In this document: positions 14,043 through 22,937 of the stretch, one piece after another
How the letters are laid out: the number at the start of each line of letters is the position of its first letter
Position numbering within the stretch: the first letter of the stretch is position 1
DNA from: a virus
Strand: one strand, 5' to 3'
Virus record (IMG/VR): IMGVR_UViG_3300020190_000007
Location: 62,001 to 126,000 of that record
Length of the DNA: 64,000 nucleotides
Made by a program: the position numbers and the translations under genes
The notes under the pieces: generated by a model
Told to the model about the DNA's origin: nothing
The model's database searches: none
The model's input: only the letters and a program-made list of their open reading frames with translations

Positions 14043-16004
14043 TTAATTAAATTGAGGTGGCAAGGTAAAAGATGTGTAATCTAATTGTGAAGGTGTAACC
14101 GTTTGACGCATTTCATTTACCACTGATGGACTTTTATACATTTCCCGAACAACCGCATCCAAAACAGGACCATTTGTTTTAAAGTTATGTTCGTGTTTAT
14201 AATTAACCACTGCGGCCGTTTGATTTGAGTTTTGATTATTGGTATTACCTTTTAATTTATTTTCCAAATCAGATTCACTTACACCCATACTTTTAGCAAC
14301 CAAAGCTTTAGCGGGTGCAACTGCTTCACTAACCATCTTAGAAAATAACTCTTCGTCCGTTTTTTGTAACCCACCTAAACTTGTTTTTTCTTTTAAATTT
14401 TCAGATAACTCTAACCCTTCAATGTATTTGTCAAATTCAGCTAAAGGTTGTCTTATTGTCGCGGCCGCTTGTACCTTAGCAACTGTTAATAATGCACTTA
14501 TGTCTTTTTGCATATTTTGGGTTGCGGTATATTGGTCTCTTGCAATATCTTCAACAGACATATCTTCAAAAGCTTTTTGGTTCTCTAATAAACCTTTTGC
14601 AATTGTTGGACTTAATTCATCTAATGCAACTTTAGTATCCTGCAATCCTAATTCTTTTGCCAAGGATTGAGGGATGTCAATAACCATTCTACCACCCTCC
14701 ATTTTAGAGATGTTGGTTAAGAACTCTTTTTCTTTTTCGTCAATTTGTAGACCTGATGATAACAACGCGGTTGCTGCTGACGACCTTTCCGCAGCTTTGA
14801 TTGCGGTTTTAGACATCTCTTCCATACTCATACCCATTTGGTCCGCTAATGCTTTAGATTTTCTAAGATTAGCTCCTGTGATTTCAAACCTACCTAATTC
14901 AGTATTATATGTGGCTAATGAACCTGCAACACCTATCATAGCATCTTGTAATCCACCAGCATCGTTGGTCGCCATATACATTAATTTTAATGGGTCATTA
15001 AAGTCACCAATAGCGCCTCCTATAGCTTGTAATTCAGCAGATAACGCAATTGCTTGGTCCGGGTCAAAAAGTTTTTCCGCCATTGTTTTAACCTTTTCAA
15101 TATTCATATTAAATTCAATAGACTTCTGAACCATTCTGGTTAATCCCTCAACACCATTTTTAAATCCAATGGTATTTAATTTGTCCATATTAGCACCAAC
15201 ATCCGCCACTACTTTTCTTGCATTTAAACCAAGAGTTAATGAACTTTTACCCGCTTTGTCAATTTCTTTGATTGCATCTTTTGCACCAATACCTATTTTG
15301 TCAAAACTATCTAACGCGGCACCCAATCTATATAAATCACCATAAAATGCTCTTGCTGTTTTTTGAGATTCTTGTAAAACATCTTTACCGAATGTTGTCA
15401 TCTTACCAGTTTGTTCAACCATTTGTACTGAATAATCTTTCACATCCTCAAAACTAAATCCCATGGCGGTTGCGGCTGGTAATGTTTCAAATATATTGTT
15501 TCTAAATTGTCTCGATAATTCACCGGTTAAACCAAGTTCAGAATTAATTTTATTTCTTAATTCCACTTCTTGTTTTTGTATTTTTTCCAATTCTTTACCG
15601 AGAAAAGACACCATTTCACTAGTTCCTTTAACACCTAATTGAACCATAAAATCAGGTAGATTTTTTGATTCTCTCGCTATTTTACCTATTGTTTCAGATA
15701 TGGTGCTAAATTGAAATACAGTATCTTTTTGTAATGATAATGATGAAACAGGATTTGAATACCCTAAGTCCGCAATGTCTTGTGTTTTTAGTAAGTCGGT
15801 TGCATAAGACGCTGTTTTACTACCCGCACCTCCTGTGTTCCCTCCGCTTGATGGTTCTTTTTGGTTATAAAATGACCAATAATCATCTACTTTACCCATT
15901 AAAGAACTATTATTCTGTACTGATTGCAATTTTAAGAACTCGTTTTTGAATTGAGTATAATTTAAACCTGCTCTTAGTTTGGATACCTCTTCATTAATTG
16001 TCAT
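14043..16004 (-). CDS. 29: Tape measure protein (gp29-like)
   Basis: 653 aa, close to T4 gp29 (590 aa). Long helical, Ala/Lys/Glu-rich sequence without cysteine. The central segment (about residues 130-480) has hydrophobic helices with small residues (LPAATAMGFSFEDV, LSAELQAIGGAIGDF, MIGVAGSLATYN, AATALLSSGLQ) as in tape measure cores. It lies directly after the tail chaperone pair, the standard position. The general rule of about 1.5 angstrom per residue would give a tail near 100 nm. Start ATG 16004 follows a TATTTATA element by 3 nt. Confidence 0.82.
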   Translation of the reverse strand: MTINEEVSKLRAGLNYTQFKNEFLKLQSVQNNSSLMGKVDDYWSFYNQKEPSSGGNTGGAGSKTASYATDLLKTQDIADLGYSNPVSSLSLQKDTVFQFSTISETIGKIARESKNLPDFMVQLGVKGTSEMVSFLGKELEKIQKQEVELRNKINSELGLTGELSRQFRNNIFETLPAATAMGFSFEDVKDYSVQMVEQTGKMTTFGKDVLQESQKTARAFYGDLYRLGAALDSFDKIGIGAKDAIKEIDKAGKSSLTLGLNARKVVADVGANMDKLNTIGFKNGVEGLTRMVQKSIEFNMNIEKVKTMAEKLFDPDQAIALSAELQAIGGAIGDFNDPLKLMYMATNDAGGLQDAMIGVAGSLATYNTELGRFEITGANLRKSKALADQMGMSMEEMSKTAIKAAERSSAATALLSSGLQIDEKEKEFLTNISKMEGGRMVIDIPQSLAKELGLQDTKVALDELSPTIAKGLLENQKAFEDMSVEDIARDQYTATQNMQKDISALLTVAKVQAAATIRQPLAEFDKYIEGLELSENLKEKTSLGGLQKTDEELFSKMVSEAVAPAKALVAKSMGVSESDLENKLKGNTNNQNSNQTAAVVNYKHEHNFKTNGPVLDAVVREMYKSPSVVNEMRQTVTPSQLDYTSFTLPPQFN

Positions 16005-16015: not shown

Positions 16016-16198
16016 TTATTTAGGAGCGTTTTCTAATTCAATAATATACTCCACGTAATATCTACGTATGAAAACGGGCATGGTGATAATATCACCATAA
16101 CTAAAACCTCTTTTGATTAAAAATAAAATTTCATCTAACTGTCCTTTCTTATAAGCCATAGAAAGGGCGAAAAAACTCAACCCCGAACCCAATTTCAA
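16016..16198 (-). CDS. Downstream frame of tail assembly chaperone, probably a frameshift product
   Basis: An open frame of up to 60 codons overlaps the last 50 nt of the 249-aa chaperone gene in the +1 frame. Its own starts are poor: TTG at 16198, or an internal ATG at 16159 with no Shine-Dalgarno. The C-terminal residues (MAYKKGQLDEILFLIKRGFS, then IITMPVFIRRYYVEYIIELENAPK) look like a compact helical domain, as in the short second chaperone of long-tailed phages. A T6 run at 16170-16175 in the overlap lets tRNA-Phe slip. Slippage there would give a fusion of about 293 aa. Independent translation of a 47-aa protein cannot be excluded. Confidence 0.65.
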   Translation of the reverse strand: MKLGSGLSFFALSMAYKKGQLDEILFLIKRGFSYGDIITMPVFIRRYYVEYIIELENAPK

Positions 16199-16898
16199 CT
16201 TGGGTGTCTTCTCCTGACGGGGTTTTTACTGTTTTTGTTAAATCTAATCCTGGTTTATTTTCTTTTACAAATTTTTTGAAATCTTGGGAATCTTTGATTG
16301 GTAATCTTTCCACAAAATTGTGAATATTCATCATATCCTTGTTTCCTGCAACAGATTTAATCATCATTTCTAATTGTTTTGTCACGATAGGTGCAACACC
16401 TTGACCGTTCCAACTTCTTTTTAAATCATCAAGTTCTTTTTCTTGTTTTGGTGTTAAAAATTTAAATGTAATTTGAACTTTTGATTTTTCCATAAAATAT
16501 GGGTATTCACCATTCGAATCGCATTCTAAATTAAAATCTTTGAATTTTAATTCACTCATATCAACAGATACTTCAAATTCCTTTTCGGTTTTAGGGTCTG
16601 TTAAATAGAATTTATATTCAGGACCGAAAGCGGTGTTTCTTAAAAATATTAATACCGCTTGTCTATCTTCTTCAACAATATCTTCAATTTGAATATCTCT
16701 ATCCAAAATTTTTCTTTTTAATAATTCATCTATTACACCATTCGAGGCAATAAGATTTTGAGCTGATAATATATTTTCATCGGCGGCTGTTAAATACGCA
16801 ACCTTGAGTGATTTCTTTTTATTTTGATAGTGTATACCTCTTGAGGGTAGTTCAACAACATCATATGCAATTGTTGGGTCAACTCTAAATTCTTCCAT
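16149..16898 (-). CDS. 26: gp26-like baseplate hub/tail assembly chaperone
   Basis: 249 aa against 208 in T4 gp26. The start VELPSRGIHYQNKKKSLKVA followed by YLTAADENILSAQNLI...ELLKRKIL...LEDI-type region, then DRQAVLIFLRNTAFGPEYKF with the beta segment of PKTEKEFEVSVDMSEL, matches the pattern of T4-type baseplate proteins of the gp26 class (small tail-assembly factor not usually kept in the virion). The gene is immediately upstream of the tape measure, where all long-tailed phages place their tail chaperones. Its 3' end overlaps the small +1 frame. Confidence 0.72.
   Translation of the reverse strand: MEEFRVDPTIAYDVVELPSRGIHYQNKKKSLKVAYLTAADENILSAQNLIASNGVIDELLKRKILDRDIQIEDIVEEDRQAVLIFLRNTAFGPEYKFYLTDPKTEKEFEVSVDMSELKFKDFNLECDSNGEYPYFMEKSKVQITFKFLTPKQEKELDDLKRSWNGQGVAPIVTKQLEMMIKSVAGNKDMMNIHNFVERLPIKDSQDFKKFVKENKPGLDLTKTVKTPSGEDTQVEIGFGVEFFRPFYGL
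16170..16178 (-). other. Candidate slippery site in tail chaperone gene
   Basis: Minus strand reads GAG TTT TTT CGC in the chaperone frame. A P-site tRNA-Phe on the first TTT can re-pair one base forward on TTT, and the next codon TTC enters the downstream frame. A -2 slip gives the same frame. An AGGAG stretch lies about 30 nt upstream. Confidence 0.5.
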
Positions 16899-16997: not shown

Positions 16998-17486
16998 TTA
17001 GTAAACTAAAATACATCTATCCATTCTTAACGAACATGTGATAGATGCAATATCATCTCTTGAATAATCAAGTTCGTTAAAGTTTAAGTCGGTTATGAAA
17101 GAACCTTGAAGTATCCATTTTTCAACCACAACCCCCGTTGGGTCTAACATCTCTAATTCAATATCCTTTTTATAACCAGCTGCGTAACCCATACGACCTG
17201 TTACTGATTCGGCGTGTAGACGGAACCATTCCATCAACGCTTGTGACGCTGAAGGACCAATTGGGTCTTTGAAGGTTACTCTTATTTCACTCCATTCAAA
17301 TCTACCAGCAACATATGTTGAGGTGTTTATAAAAGGAATTGCAACTGAATTTATTTTTGCGCTTGGTCTTGCACTTGATGTTACATACCATTCATTTATT
17401 CCTAATGATGAAGGAAATCTAAGTATGAATCGGTTAACTCTTTTCGGTTCGTAAGGAACCGGCATTTTCATTAATAAATCTGCCAT
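16998..17486 (-). CDS. 19: Tail tube protein (gp19-like)
   Basis: 162 aa, essentially the T4 gp19 length (163). The N-terminus LLMKMPVPYEPKRVNRFILR, the central SARPSAKINSVAIPFINTST and the C-terminal DIASITCSLRMDRCILVY are typical of contractile-tail tube subunits, which form hexameric rings stacked inside the sheath. It stands as its own transcription unit between a long regulatory gap upstream and a terminator downstream, as expected for an abundant protein. Confidence 0.9.
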   Translation of the reverse strand: MADLLMKMPVPYEPKRVNRFILRFPSSLGINEWYVTSSARPSAKINSVAIPFINTSTYVAGRFEWSEIRVTFKDPIGPSASQALMEWFRLHAESVTGRMGYAAGYKKDIELEMLDPTGVVVEKWILQGSFITDLNFNELDYSRDDIASITCSLRMDRCILVY

Positions 17487-17834: not shown

Positions 17835-20690
17835 TTAGATATCATCAAATGATGCTCCTGTTGGTGTAATTATGAACTCAACATCTATGAATTCTAGAGC
17901 TCTTGTTGGTTTGATATAAATCTTACCTCTCAAAGTATTAGAGTCAATGTCTTCTGGGTCGTTGGAAACCGTAACACGGAATTCATATAAACCCCTTTCC
18001 CTTTTAATTGCATCTAATATTGGGTTAACCAATCTCAAGAATTCATTACGAACTTGTTCGTCATTTTGTTCGAATAACAATCTTACCGCTACTGCCGAAA
18101 TTAATTTTCTAGCCCTTAACAATAATCTTCTTACGTTAATTCTATCCAACGCCGATTCACGAATTTGAAGGGTTTTGTTACCCCATATAATTGTGCCGGT
18201 ATCTGCGTATGTTGCTATTGGGTTAATTCTAGCTTTGTATAGGTCATCTCTTTCATCTAAAGTTAATTTCTTAACCGCTTTAATTGAATTTACTAATCCT
18301 CTTGAATAACCCGCTACCGCAAACCAAGGGAAAGATACGTTATCGGTTAACGCAATATTTCTTAAAACTTCACCAGTTGGTGGTAGATATATTTGTACGG
18401 CGTTGTCTACGTCTCTAACTTGAATCCAAGGCCAATAAACAGCTGAATAATTACTATCAATCGACACACCGTCCAAAGCGTCTATTACTTCATCCGCAGT
18501 ACTGTAGTTTGGTGGTGAAATTACGTAAAGAGAATCCGCTCTATCGTCTTCAATCATATCAATTGCATATGACGTTAAAGAACTATTGTCATAGAAGTTA
18601 ATACCCGGTGTTGCAAAAATGTTTATATCAACTGATTCAGGATTTGAGAAGGTGTCAATACCTTGGGCGTAAGCGTAGTAATCAGAGTTTCCCGATACCG
18701 TGCTAAACACGCCTCCATTATTGGTATTACCACTTGTGTAAGTGTTTTTACCAAAGATGAATCCATCACCGTAGGTTCTCACATTTCTATAGATATCCCA
18801 ACCATCAAATCCTCCAGCAGCGGTAAAAGTGAACTTACGATAATTGATGTTTGTCAATACGTTACTAACTCCACCTGTTTGACCCTCTAAATCATACGAT
18901 GTAGTTAAGAAAGTTGTTCCTGTGATTGTAGACGCGTTTGTTGATAAGTGGAAACCCTTAGTCGTACCAGCCGCTGAAGTTCCTTTGAATTTAAATAAGT
19001 CCCTATCGTATGTTACTTTATTGGTTGGACTTGATAAACCAAAGTATGTTTTTCTCACTTTATCACCTGAAGATAAAACCGGTGTTCCATCTGCGAGATA
19101 AGATTCGGTATCACCAGCATTAAAGAATGTAGTTTTGTAAATCACAGAACCCAAAGTGTCTGAACCGAAAGTACTGTTATTCGGGAATCCTTTAAATCCG
19201 GCGGGATATGCGTCAACGGGGTGATTATCAGACATTAACAGCATAATGTATTTTGAACGTATTTCATATTCACCATCGGATGTACCAACCTTTTTAGCCA
19301 CATAATTAGGTAAATCTGGATTCATACTACATCTACTAAATTTTTCAAGTACGACAATATTATTGTCTGTATCGTTAAAATCTCTAACAATTAAGTCAAA
19401 GTCACCCGTGTCTATATTGATATTAATAATAGAAATTTTTACCTCAAAGTTCGCTGCGTCCCCGTCTGATATTGTAATTACATCAAATAAATCATTGACT
19501 TCACCACCTCTTACTTCAGAAACAACAGTTGGTGATATTGGAGTATCATAAGACGTTTTAAAGTCATTACCAACAGTTTCATAAGATTCTGTTAAGCTTA
19601 AACCTCTAATATATCCTTCTTCATAAGCTCTTAACAAATAATTTGGATAAGCTTCAAATACATAAATAGGAACGTCACCTTTTAATTTGTCATAAACATC
19701 TGTACCAAATACTTTTGTTACATATTTTGATGACGACGCATCCATACTACAAGTAAATGATTTTGCTCCGCTCGTTGAACCTGTAATATTCACTGTAAAT
19801 TCAGCTAAAGGATTTGTAGTAATTCCTGAACCTGTCACAATGAAATTAGCATTCCCCGTGGACTCTAAGTTTAAAGTTTGTTGGCTGTAAGAGCCTCTTG
19901 GTCTGAACGCTAAAACAACCTGATTATTATATGCCGTATTGAGTGTTGCGTTGTAGGTGAACTTAGTCACATCAAATCTACTTGCACCACTGTTGTATAC
20001 AAATAAGTAAGAATACACTTCAGAACCCGCGGAATTTACTAAAACATTATACCATTCCTTATTGTTATTATTATTTGCGTTATTTAAACCTGTTAGAGGA
20101 GAAAGTTCTTCAAGTGATGCGGTTTGACCAGAGGTTTGTGAAGTTGGTACTTCACCCATAACAAACCACTCTCCATGATTAGATGATGTGTTACCACTAA
20201 AGTTTGCCACAATATAATCTGTAATATAATTTCCATCTACAGATATTTTATCTGATAGTTCACTATAAATCGTACTTGCCGTGATTGTTGTGGTCTGTGC
20301 TGACATTGTTAAACCCGTGGTTGTACCACTAAGCGATTCCAATATAACACCAGCAATTGTCTTAACCCCGTAAGTTTTAACAGGTAAGTAACCCGTTAAA
20401 CCCAATATTTTTGTTACAAATAATTGGTTTGATTCTTCTAAATAAGATTTTGCAAAATAAGGTAATTCATATTTTGGGTTATTGTTGTTGTCTTTTAAGG
20501 GACTTGTTCCTCCAAAATATGACTTGAATTCGTCAAAATTAGTTATTAATAAAGGTTCAAAAGCGGGACCCTTTAAGGTTTCACCCACCAAACCTAATGT
20601 GCTGACACCAACACTTTGTGCCACGAATGTTAAGTCTTTTTCGGATGTGTATACACCCGGAGATACAAAAACTCTATTTGAATTTGCCAT
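17835..20690 (-). CDS. 18: Tail sheath protein (gp18-like)
   Basis: 951 aa, much longer than T4 gp18 (659 aa). N-terminus VFVSPGVYTSEKDLTF and then GLVGETLKGPAFEPLLITNF are the classical sheath start. The C-terminal third has the conserved sheath core: GTIIWGNKTLQIRESALDRI, NVRRLLLRARKLISAVAVR, NEFLRLVNPILDAIKRERGL, and the final strand GKIYIKPTRALEFIDVEFII. The extra length is a Ser/Thr/Gly/Asn-rich beta region at residues about 130-600, probably surface domains on the tail. It contracts around the gp19 tube at infection. Confidence 0.93.
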   Translation of the reverse strand: MANSNRVFVSPGVYTSEKDLTFVAQSVGVSTLGLVGETLKGPAFEPLLITNFDEFKSYFGGTSPLKDNNNNPKYELPYFAKSYLEESNQLFVTKILGLTGYLPVKTYGVKTIAGVILESLSGTTTGLTMSAQTTTITASTIYSELSDKISVDGNYITDYIVANFSGNTSSNHGEWFVMGEVPTSQTSGQTASLEELSPLTGLNNANNNNNKEWYNVLVNSAGSEVYSYLFVYNSGASRFDVTKFTYNATLNTAYNNQVVLAFRPRGSYSQQTLNLESTGNANFIVTGSGITTNPLAEFTVNITGSTSGAKSFTCSMDASSSKYVTKVFGTDVYDKLKGDVPIYVFEAYPNYLLRAYEEGYIRGLSLTESYETVGNDFKTSYDTPISPTVVSEVRGGEVNDLFDVITISDGDAANFEVKISIININIDTGDFDLIVRDFNDTDNNIVVLEKFSRCSMNPDLPNYVAKKVGTSDGEYEIRSKYIMLLMSDNHPVDAYPAGFKGFPNNSTFGSDTLGSVIYKTTFFNAGDTESYLADGTPVLSSGDKVRKTYFGLSSPTNKVTYDRDLFKFKGTSAAGTTKGFHLSTNASTITGTTFLTTSYDLEGQTGGVSNVLTNINYRKFTFTAAGGFDGWDIYRNVRTYGDGFIFGKNTYTSGNTNNGGVFSTVSGNSDYYAYAQGIDTFSNPESVDINIFATPGINFYDNSSLTSYAIDMIEDDRADSLYVISPPNYSTADEVIDALDGVSIDSNYSAVYWPWIQVRDVDNAVQIYLPPTGEVLRNIALTDNVSFPWFAVAGYSRGLVNSIKAVKKLTLDERDDLYKARINPIATYADTGTIIWGNKTLQIRESALDRINVRRLLLRARKLISAVAVRLLFEQNDEQVRNEFLRLVNPILDAIKRERGLYEFRVTVSNDPEDIDSNTLRGKIYIKPTRALEFIDVEFIITPTGASFDDI

Positions 20691-21014: not shown

Positions 21015-22937
21015 TTAAGCACCATTTGTTGAAGACGGTGTTGGAGTAACAGATGGTGTAGGAGTAACACTTGGAGTAACAGATGGTGTTATCGATGCAC
21101 TTACTGATGGGGTAAGAGAACTTGTTGGGGTCACAGATGGCGTTGGGGATGGTGGGGTGACTAAATCAATTTGCAACGTATCATTATCACCGATACTTTG
21201 AGTTAAAATATATGTTTCAGTGTTCGGTGCATTACCGGTATATCCACTTATTAGGTGACCATTTTCATAAACACGTAGAACATATCCGGTTCCACCAGTA
21301 ATCGAGACAAACAAAAAATCACCAGCAACGCTTGAATTAATAAACGCGTTTTGACTTACCCCATATAAAATAGGAAATTCAAAGTTCCACATAGCCGAAA
21401 AACTACTACCAAAAGATGATATTACAGAACCATTAGTATTAGTATTTGTAAACAATAAATTTCTGAAAGGCGTGGGTGTTGGTGTTAATGTTGGAGTTGG
21501 GGTTGGGGTTAATGATGGAGTTAATGATGGTGTTGGTGTTATTGATGGTGTAATAGAAGGGGTAATTGTTGGTGTAACAGATGGTGTCATGGATGGTGTG
21601 GTAGATGGCGTTATCGACGGTGTGACTGAACTAGTTTGAGTTACAGAAGGTGTAATTGATGGTGTTGGTGTTATCGACGAACTTACTGATGGGGTAATAG
21701 AACTTGTTGGGGTTACTGACGGAGTTAATGATGGTGTTGGCGTTATCGACGAACTTACTGATGGGGTAATAGAACTTGTTGGGGTTACTGACGGAGTTAA
21801 TGATGGTGTTGGTGTCGGTGTTGGAGGTATCGTAAAAGTTGATTGGGTGATTACATCGTACCTATATTTTGTTTTTCCAATTGTATCGACTTCAATGGAA
21901 CCAAAAGTGTTTGTTTGTGTTAAATTACTAAATGTACCATCAATAGTATATTGAGTGGTTCCACTATATTGATTTGATTCAATAAAAATTTTCACTGGTA
22001 TACTTATAGAACTACCAGTAACCGTCGATAACGTATCTGTAAAAGATATTTCAACGGTTTTATCCACTTTTTTAGTTGATGTTGCAGTGTATTGTGCAAT
22101 GATTGAACCACTTGAGTAATTTGATGATATAGTTATTATATTTTCAGATTTATCGATTGATGGTATACTTCTTAAATCAGGTTCAATCATCGTTATACTT
22201 CTATTTACCGCTGGTGAAACTTCGAACTCCTCATCATCAATTAGAAACCCTAACATTGTAAATCCATAATTTTGAACGTAGAATCTTCTACCATCCAAGG
22301 TGTCCATTGGGGTATTATCTTCAATTCTATCTAACACGATTGGAATGTAGTGTCCTTTCACTCGGGTGTATCCCTGACGAGACGAAAACTTTTGTAAAAC
22401 CTTTTGATTGAATTTATTTATGTCTCTAAATTTTGTACAGACAATTGTTACATCAAAACTAATGTCAACCGCAATTGGTTGAGGGATTTTATAGATATCA
22501 GCACCCATTTGGTTTCCATCCCAAGTTGGAACCGAAGCGTAAAAGAAATCTCTTCTATCAGGGATGGTTCTTTGAATTGATGGATTAGTACCTAATTGAA
22601 CTTCAGGTTTTCTTACAACCGCGATAAACGGTAATTTAATATTTCCATCTTCATCACTAAAAGACCAATTATTGGTGTATTCACCCCACCTTTGAATTGT
22701 TAAAATTTTTGGAATCATAGGTATTTGGTCACCATCGGAAATTACTTTGAAATTTTCTTTCACAAATTCCAACATACCTAAATCAAGGTCGTCATGTAAT
22801 ATTGAATCAGGAAGGAATGTGTCAGATTTTATAATTTCTTCTAACAATTCTTTTCTTCTACCCATTATTGCAGGACCATCGGCGTTTTGGTTTGCGCCAT
22901 ATACTTTAATATCTTTTTTTCTTTTTGGTAATCCCAT
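21015..22937 (-). CDS. Probable tail terminator (gp15-like) with Thr/Pro/Ser repeat extension
   Basis: 640 aa. Residues about 60-270 resemble gp15 in layout: [94 protein letters not shown]. Residues about 370-490 consist of Thr-Pro-Ser-Val/Ile repeats ([14 protein letters not shown] units), a globular beta domain follows (about 490-595), and a second short Thr/Pro repeat ends the protein. T4 gp15 (272 aa) closes the tail tube. Gene order gp14-like, gp15-like, sheath, tube agrees. The repeat tail may be an exposed stalk. Confidence 0.6.
21480..21835 (-). repeat. Thr/Pro/Ser-coding repeats inside the gp15-like gene
   Basis: Degenerate short repeats of the type GGTGTTGGTGTTA/GATGGTGTAAC on the plus strand encode TPTPS/TPSVTPS units. 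A block near 21660-21730 is nearly identical to one near 21738-21808, about 72 nt apart. Another short copy lies at 21030-21150. Confidence 0.8.

Follow-up and report, generated by a model that had tools for sequence, protein, structure and literature searches.

In phage lambda the short and long tail assembly chaperones, G and GT, are said to arise by a frameshift, a finding attributed to Xu, Hendrix and Duda in 2004. The gene described here resembles the lambda gene in that a short and a long chaperone would come from one gene by a shift near its 3' end, ahead of the tape measure gene. It is unlike the lambda gene in that lambda shifts by -1, whereas our phage would shift by +1, at a P-site UUU_C and in a protein of the T4_baseplate family (PF12322). 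The chaperones of T4-like phages have reportedly been identified as gp26 and gp51 by Vladimirov, Gautam and Davidson (2022, Virology 566:9), in a paper the title of which argues for a mechanism other than frameshifting. The N domain and T domain of our protein have homologues in T4 gp26 and gp51, but T4 has two paralogous genes and cyanophages have a -1 frame or an own start, whereas the branch to which our phage belongs has a conserved +1 site. Both frameshifting in tail chaperone genes and the assignment of T4 gp26 and gp51 are already known. Chaperone frameshifting in long-tailed phages has been recorded as -1, -2 and +1, with T4 called an exception (PMC5009743), and a 2025 paper cites Vladimirov et al. 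for poly-T -1 signals (PMC12846349).

Shifts in the +1 direction are known from several other settings. The prfB (RF2) gene has a CUU_UGA +1 site with a Shine-Dalgarno stimulator, which is like our site in the P-site slip onto U, the slow A site and the G-rich element upstream, but our site has a sense codon in place of the stop, a longer spacer and a phage with little Shine-Dalgarno use at its starts. Other phage and archaeal virus cases are SPP1 gp17.1* (CCC_UAA), Listeria PSA and HSTV-2 (PMC6316719, PMC5009743). SPP1 and PSA also have +1 recoding in tail genes, but there it involves a Pro codon before a stop and the tube gene; the archaeal virus HSTV-2 has a likely +1 chaperone shift, with no link to the gp26-like family reported. 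For influenza PA-X, experiments have proven +1 shifting at UUU_CGU (PMC3498833), and UUU_CGN has been proposed as such a site in amalgaviruses (PMC5052127). The influenza site UCC_UUU_CGU and the plant amalgavirus site share with ours the P-site UUU_C, the A-site CGN and a Phe-tRNA that pairs better on UUC, while the ribosomes are eukaryotic and the proteins unrelated; the higher affinity of tRNA-Phe for UUC than for UUU is an argument that was made for the influenza site (PMC3498833).

The window (the whole 64,000-nucleotide stretch of viral DNA analysed here) carries a gp26-like ORF of 249 aa, the short form TAC-N, at 16149..16898 on the minus strand. As an earlier sequence-only reading had stated, this frame is overlapped by a +1 frame for 50 nt; that figure holds if the overlap is counted from a TTG, and the +1 ORF (16016..16225, minus strand) is in fact open for 77 nt into the gp26-like gene. 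The 3' end of the gene on the minus strand is GAG TTT TTT CGC CCT TTC TAT GGC TTA TAA, and the predicted shift site TTT TTT CGC lies at 16167..16175, where the P-site TTT (16172-16170) would re-pair on TTC (16171-16169) with CGC in the A site. If UUUC is read as a single Phe step, the predicted fusion, TAC-NC (16019..16898, minus strand), is exactly 293 aa long, in line with the earlier estimate of about 293, and the gp26-like gene holds no other such step. Genes for a tail tube protein (16998..17486, minus strand; phrog_4542, E 2.5e-24) and a tail sheath protein (17835..20690, minus strand; phrog_23, E 3.9e-59, and PF04984) lie upstream. The stop of the +1 ORF at 16016 is 11 nt ahead of the ATG (16004) of the next gene, a 653-aa ORF at 14043..16004 on the minus strand. 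The +1 frame does run up to this gene, as the sequence-only reading had it, but that the gene encodes a tape measure protein is probable by position only: the tape measure gene of immuto occupies the same place, the ORF has no significant Pfam or PHROG match, and pairwise comparison with the immuto tape measure finds no similarity.

The comparative evidence set out below makes it very probable that some ribosomes slip by +1 at this conserved site, so that a short and a long tail assembly chaperone are made from one gene. We propose that at GAG TTT TTT CGC peptidyl-tRNA-Phe would rest on UUU in the P site while a slowly read CGC occupies the A site, and that a fraction of ribosomes would slip forward one base onto UUC, read GCC next and continue in the +1 frame. 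The 293-aa TAC-NC made in this way would carry an additional helical T domain of ~50 residues, and TAC-N would be the unshifted product. By analogy with lambda G/GT, the tape measure protein would be coated by the short form, and tail tube subunits would be brought in by the long form, the less abundant of the two. The predicted sequence at the join in the window clade is VEFFALSMAYK for a +1 shift and VEFFFALSMAYK for a -2 shift; in immuto it is GVSFFGLTPEYR if the slip occurs at UUU_C (codon 1) and GVSFLGLTPEYR if it occurs at CUU_U (codon 2). CGC makes up 4 of the 661 Arg codons in the window (0.6%), and an in-frame TTT-CGY is found once in its 41 ORFs, at the shift site. A pausing role for CGC is our proposal, and the codon may be fixed by the GCC Ala codon that overlaps it in the +1 frame.

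The gp26-like protein matches PF12322 (E 7.5e-10, 39.3 bits against a curated cut-off of 24.5) and phrog_150 (E 7.2e-12), and its N domain matches a profile of T4-like gp26/gp51 (98.8%, E 1.2e-16). For structure modelling the N part and the T domain were folded as separate chains. AlphaFold gives the gp26-like protein a pLDDT of 89, and in Foldseek the model matches predicted baseplate hub/gp26 proteins, with no significant PDB match (the HK97 chaperone 2ob9 is at rank 16, E 2.3). The T domain alone (53 aa; 16019..16177, minus strand) is predicted to form three helices with a pLDDT of 92 and has no significant Foldseek match. In profile-profile comparison the +1 ORF of the window clade and its relatives matches the C-terminal domain of T4-like gp51 (89%, E 2.3e-6 for one comparison); an alignment of T4-like proteins was used for this, single T4 gp26 or gp51 sequences being too thin, and in a single-sequence PHROG scan the gp51 family was not matched. 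On this comparison the T domain has its homologue in the C-terminal part of T4 gp51. T4 gp26 and gp51 are both in PF12322 and are similar to each other, and phrog_150 is covered at 14-235 by T4 gp26, at 13-280 by T4 gp51 and at 242-281 by the short gp51 of cyanophage S-SCSM1. From these spans T4 gp26 is the N domain, T4 gp51 the N and C domains together and S-SCSM1 gp51 the C domain alone. Substitutions in the T domain among 30 relatives number 4740, 2675 and 8596 at positions 1, 2 and 3 of the +1 codons; the domain evolves as a protein, following the +1 reading frame.

The layout was compared in 170 distinct relatives drawn from scans of IMG/VR viral contigs and from six named phages: 30 of the window clade, 57 immuto-type, 64 Mel-JY01-type, 13 LR756508-type and the 6 named phages, which are phages of Flavobacterium, Microcystis, Bacillus, Streptococcus and Rhodothermus. 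Of the 170, 168 have the T domain in the +1 frame; an automatic motif identified 160 of them, and 8 with a truncated contig or a divergent motif were assigned by eye. At a conserved Phe-Phe or Phe-Leu pair every one of the 168 carries an in-frame TTT with C or T as the next base. The sites are TTT TTT CGC/CGT, TTC TTT CGC, TTC TTT CGT and TTT TTT CAC; TTT TTT TGG, TTC TTT TGG, CTT TTT TGG, TTT CTT TGG and TTT CTA TGG; and TTT TTT TAC, TTT CTT TAC and TTT CTA TTC. Codon 1 is always TTT (UUU_C) if codon 2 is CTT or CTA, and a TTT at codon 2 can be preceded by TTC or CTT, so that the invariant element is one UUU_Y tetranucleotide. Within the window clade the second TTT is present in 30/30 and CGC or CGT follows in 30/30; UUU then CGN at the frame junction is found in these 30 and in SagM, and the wider clade has mainly UUU_UGG or UUU_CUN. 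Some relatives have a +1 stop just upstream of the Phe codons, which confines the shift to an overlap of 23-29 nt. TTT is the commoner Phe codon (81%), and the conservation of TTT alone reaches only ~1e-5 with 39 lineages treated as independent. In a scan of synonymous sites the last 11 codons ranked 9th lowest among 247 windows, which is suggestive only of a signal at the site.

The sequence-only reading had placed a +1 slip of tRNA-Phe in a tail assembly chaperone gene, and these comparisons support all three elements. The overlap and TTT_Y are kept in 168/168, but the T6 itself is not essential, L047 having TTC TTT CGC, whereas TTT_C is essential. That reading had also left open a -2 shift, in which tRNA-Phe would move back on the T6 run and add one residue (VEFFFALS). 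TTT TTT permits this here and phage Mu uses -2 (PMC5009743), but in L047, in SagM (TTC TTT CG), in the L248 group (TTC TTT TGG) and in the TTT CTT TGG relatives UUU_Y and the +1 frame are kept where tRNA-Phe could not re-pair two bases back, and a -2 shift is very unlikely. The same relatives bear on transcriptional slippage, by which a T run would give mixed mRNAs. The run is T6 here and T7 in many Mel-JY-like relatives, but it is only T3 in L047 and in those with TTT CTT TGG, in which the layout is kept; slippage runs are also usually longer, and we regard slippage as extremely improbable. In a metagenome-derived IMG/VR record, an indel introduced in sequencing or assembly, or decay of the gene, might be suspected as the origin of the two frames. 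Yet the layout recurs in 168 sequences, isolates such as immuto and SP-15 among them, and the T domain shows a coding-type substitution pattern, which makes such an error or decay scarcely credible.

Alternatively, the T domain could be made as a small protein of its own, from a start such as the ATG at 16157..16159 (minus strand), reached by coupled re-initiation at the gp26 stop. The sequence-only reading had found no good start in the +1 frame; there is indeed no conserved one, but it had missed this ATG (TCT ATG GCT), which overlaps the gp26 stop. An ATG stands in the same place in 11/30 sequences of the window clade, some T4-like relatives have overlapping ATGs, and an own start seems to be used in P-SSM2, phiM19, YB07 and Cygsa01. 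However, the ATG is replaced by ACG in 19/30 sequences of the window clade and has no Shine-Dalgarno sequence before it, and among the 160 +1 relatives counted, 35 lack any ATG, GTG or TTG in the overlap and the 33 nt beyond. Conservation in the +1 frame moreover begins upstream of the ATG, at SFFALS. Two relatives do have an own start, L257 (L257:1501-2530) and L263 (L263:1501-2505), in which the T domain is in another frame with its own ATG, but these have lost the TTT at the site (TTC TTG and TTC CTT). A tree nests both inside the +1 clade, and they form a natural control for the frameshift, in which the C-terminal domain of the chaperone has turned into a separate gene. Loss of the site goes with gain of a start, which argues that the site is used in the +1 clade and is the best single argument for the frameshift. 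An own start in the window phage is accordingly improbable. Two outcomes that the sequence-only reading had taken as contrary to a frameshift were relatives without the overlap or slip site and a small frame translated only from its own start; in fact overlap and slip site are both shared by the relatives, and no conserved start is seen in the small frame.

Upstream of the shift site the window clade has a candidate hairpin, with the 5' arm ACCCCG at 16218..16223 and the 3' arm CGGGGT, also Shine-Dalgarno-like, at 16180..16185 (minus strand), 4 nt ahead of the first TTT. The codons NCC CCR pair with TTY GGG GTN. All 30 sequences keep C as the third base of NCC, whether the codon stands for Thr, Ser or Ala, and all 30 keep GGG even though only 5% of Gly codons in the window-clade genes are GGG. 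The loop-side R-Y pair is G-C in 15, A-U in 12, G-U in 1 and broken in 2 of the 30 sequences (10, 9, 1 and 2 of the 22 that were aligned). In these 22, 97% of hairpin cells are paired and none of 500 shuffles, nor any slid version, reaches the covariation score observed, although only one of the six pairs shows two-sided change and kinship among the sequences inflates such scores; the covariation is strong but not conclusive. In the loop, TCAGGAG (16211..16217, minus strand) is invariant in 22/22 aligned sequences although neighbouring codons vary; a pairing partner for it was looked for and none was found. The hairpin, the GGGGU in its 3' arm or both would probably tune the shift rate. The 3' arm is ~8-13 nt upstream of the P-site codon, which would place it inside the paused ribosome, so that it may act like a Shine-Dalgarno sequence or re-form behind the ribosome. 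The former is doubtful because the phage starts show little Shine-Dalgarno use (3 of 41 window starts, with 1.3 expected). We know of no upstream hairpin of this kind at the PA-X or amalgavirus sites, and none was found in the Flavobacterium-, Microcystis- and LR756508-type clades. Two other candidates in the window were dropped, the inner stem ACCCAA/TTGGGT, which is not conserved in relatives, and the downstream hairpin CCUUUCU...AGAAAGG, which is not kept in them; RNAalifold finds no downstream structure. The sequence-only reading had noted neither the hairpin nor the rarity of CGC nor a connection with T4 gp51.

The expression route differs in the T4 and cyanophage branch. KBS-M-1A, P-SSM4, S-CAM4, AsFcp_4, Desulfovibrio phage 7757 and Kevin carry the T domain in the -1 frame, and in all of these except Kevin the homologous Phe-Phe pair falls within a classical U_UUU_UUC heptamer. 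An ATG lies at or beside the gp26 stop in P-SSM2, phiM19, YB07, D485, D492 and Cygsa01, and S-SCSM1 has the T domain in +1 with ATGs downstream of that stop. In a tree with long branches the +1 clade (38 rows, 100/100) is apart from the clade with T4 (15 rows, 100/100), so that shift direction is a deep trait. We lean slightly towards a scenario in which two ancient branches of the T4-type chaperone family recode the same Phe-Phe pair in opposite directions (+1 at UUU_Y, -1 at U_UUU_UUC), own starts or duplication have repeatedly replaced the shift, and the +1 shift of the window clade is tuned by a hairpin beside UUU UUU CGC in a phage with low Shine-Dalgarno use.

Most known cases in tail-chaperone genes slip backward, and the branch that includes the window, deep and diverse in its hosts, keeps the predicted forward slip throughout. 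In the literature searched, in which Vladimirov et al. 2022 is represented by its title and by citing papers, we found no account of a +1 branch, of a UUU_Y rule or of the hairpin, and these appear to be unreported. On these results, +1 recoding would be the conserved means by which a deep branch of contractile-tailed phages makes its long tail chaperone. Named members of the branch have hosts in Flavobacterium, Microcystis, Bacillus, Streptococcus and Rhodothermus, and the results tie the branch to T4 gp26/gp51. The natural series of +1, -1, own start and duplication offers a setting in which to ask how a short-to-long ratio survives a change of expression route, and the window adds a new putative UUU_CGC site in a bacterial virus with a candidate 5' stimulator. 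Submitters annotate the C-terminus of the long form as separate small hypothetical proteins, and this annotation can be corrected.

Several minor observations concern the relatives and the surrounding genes. In L269-L271 and L276-L284, which are cyanophage or T4-like sequences, a short gp51 ORF either reads in -1, with TTT TTC where gp26 ends, or has its own ATG overlapping the gp26 stop, and in S-CAM4 and AsFcp_4 the short gp51 ORF is entirely unannotated. The tail sheath protein of the window (951 aa) is ~2x the length of the sheath model that it matches (496 positions), which implies a large insertion, and the tail gene cluster also encodes a 640-aa protein with long low-complexity repeats (21015-22937, minus strand). 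The motif ATTTATA, often as CTATTTATA, occurs within 25 nt upstream of 11 of 50 ORF starts in the window, with 1.3 expected by shuffling. It is found on both strands, for example upstream of 16004 (minus strand), mostly 10-11 nt ahead of the ATG, and is possibly a late promoter or a start signal other than Shine-Dalgarno; it also precedes the tape measure gene of immuto.
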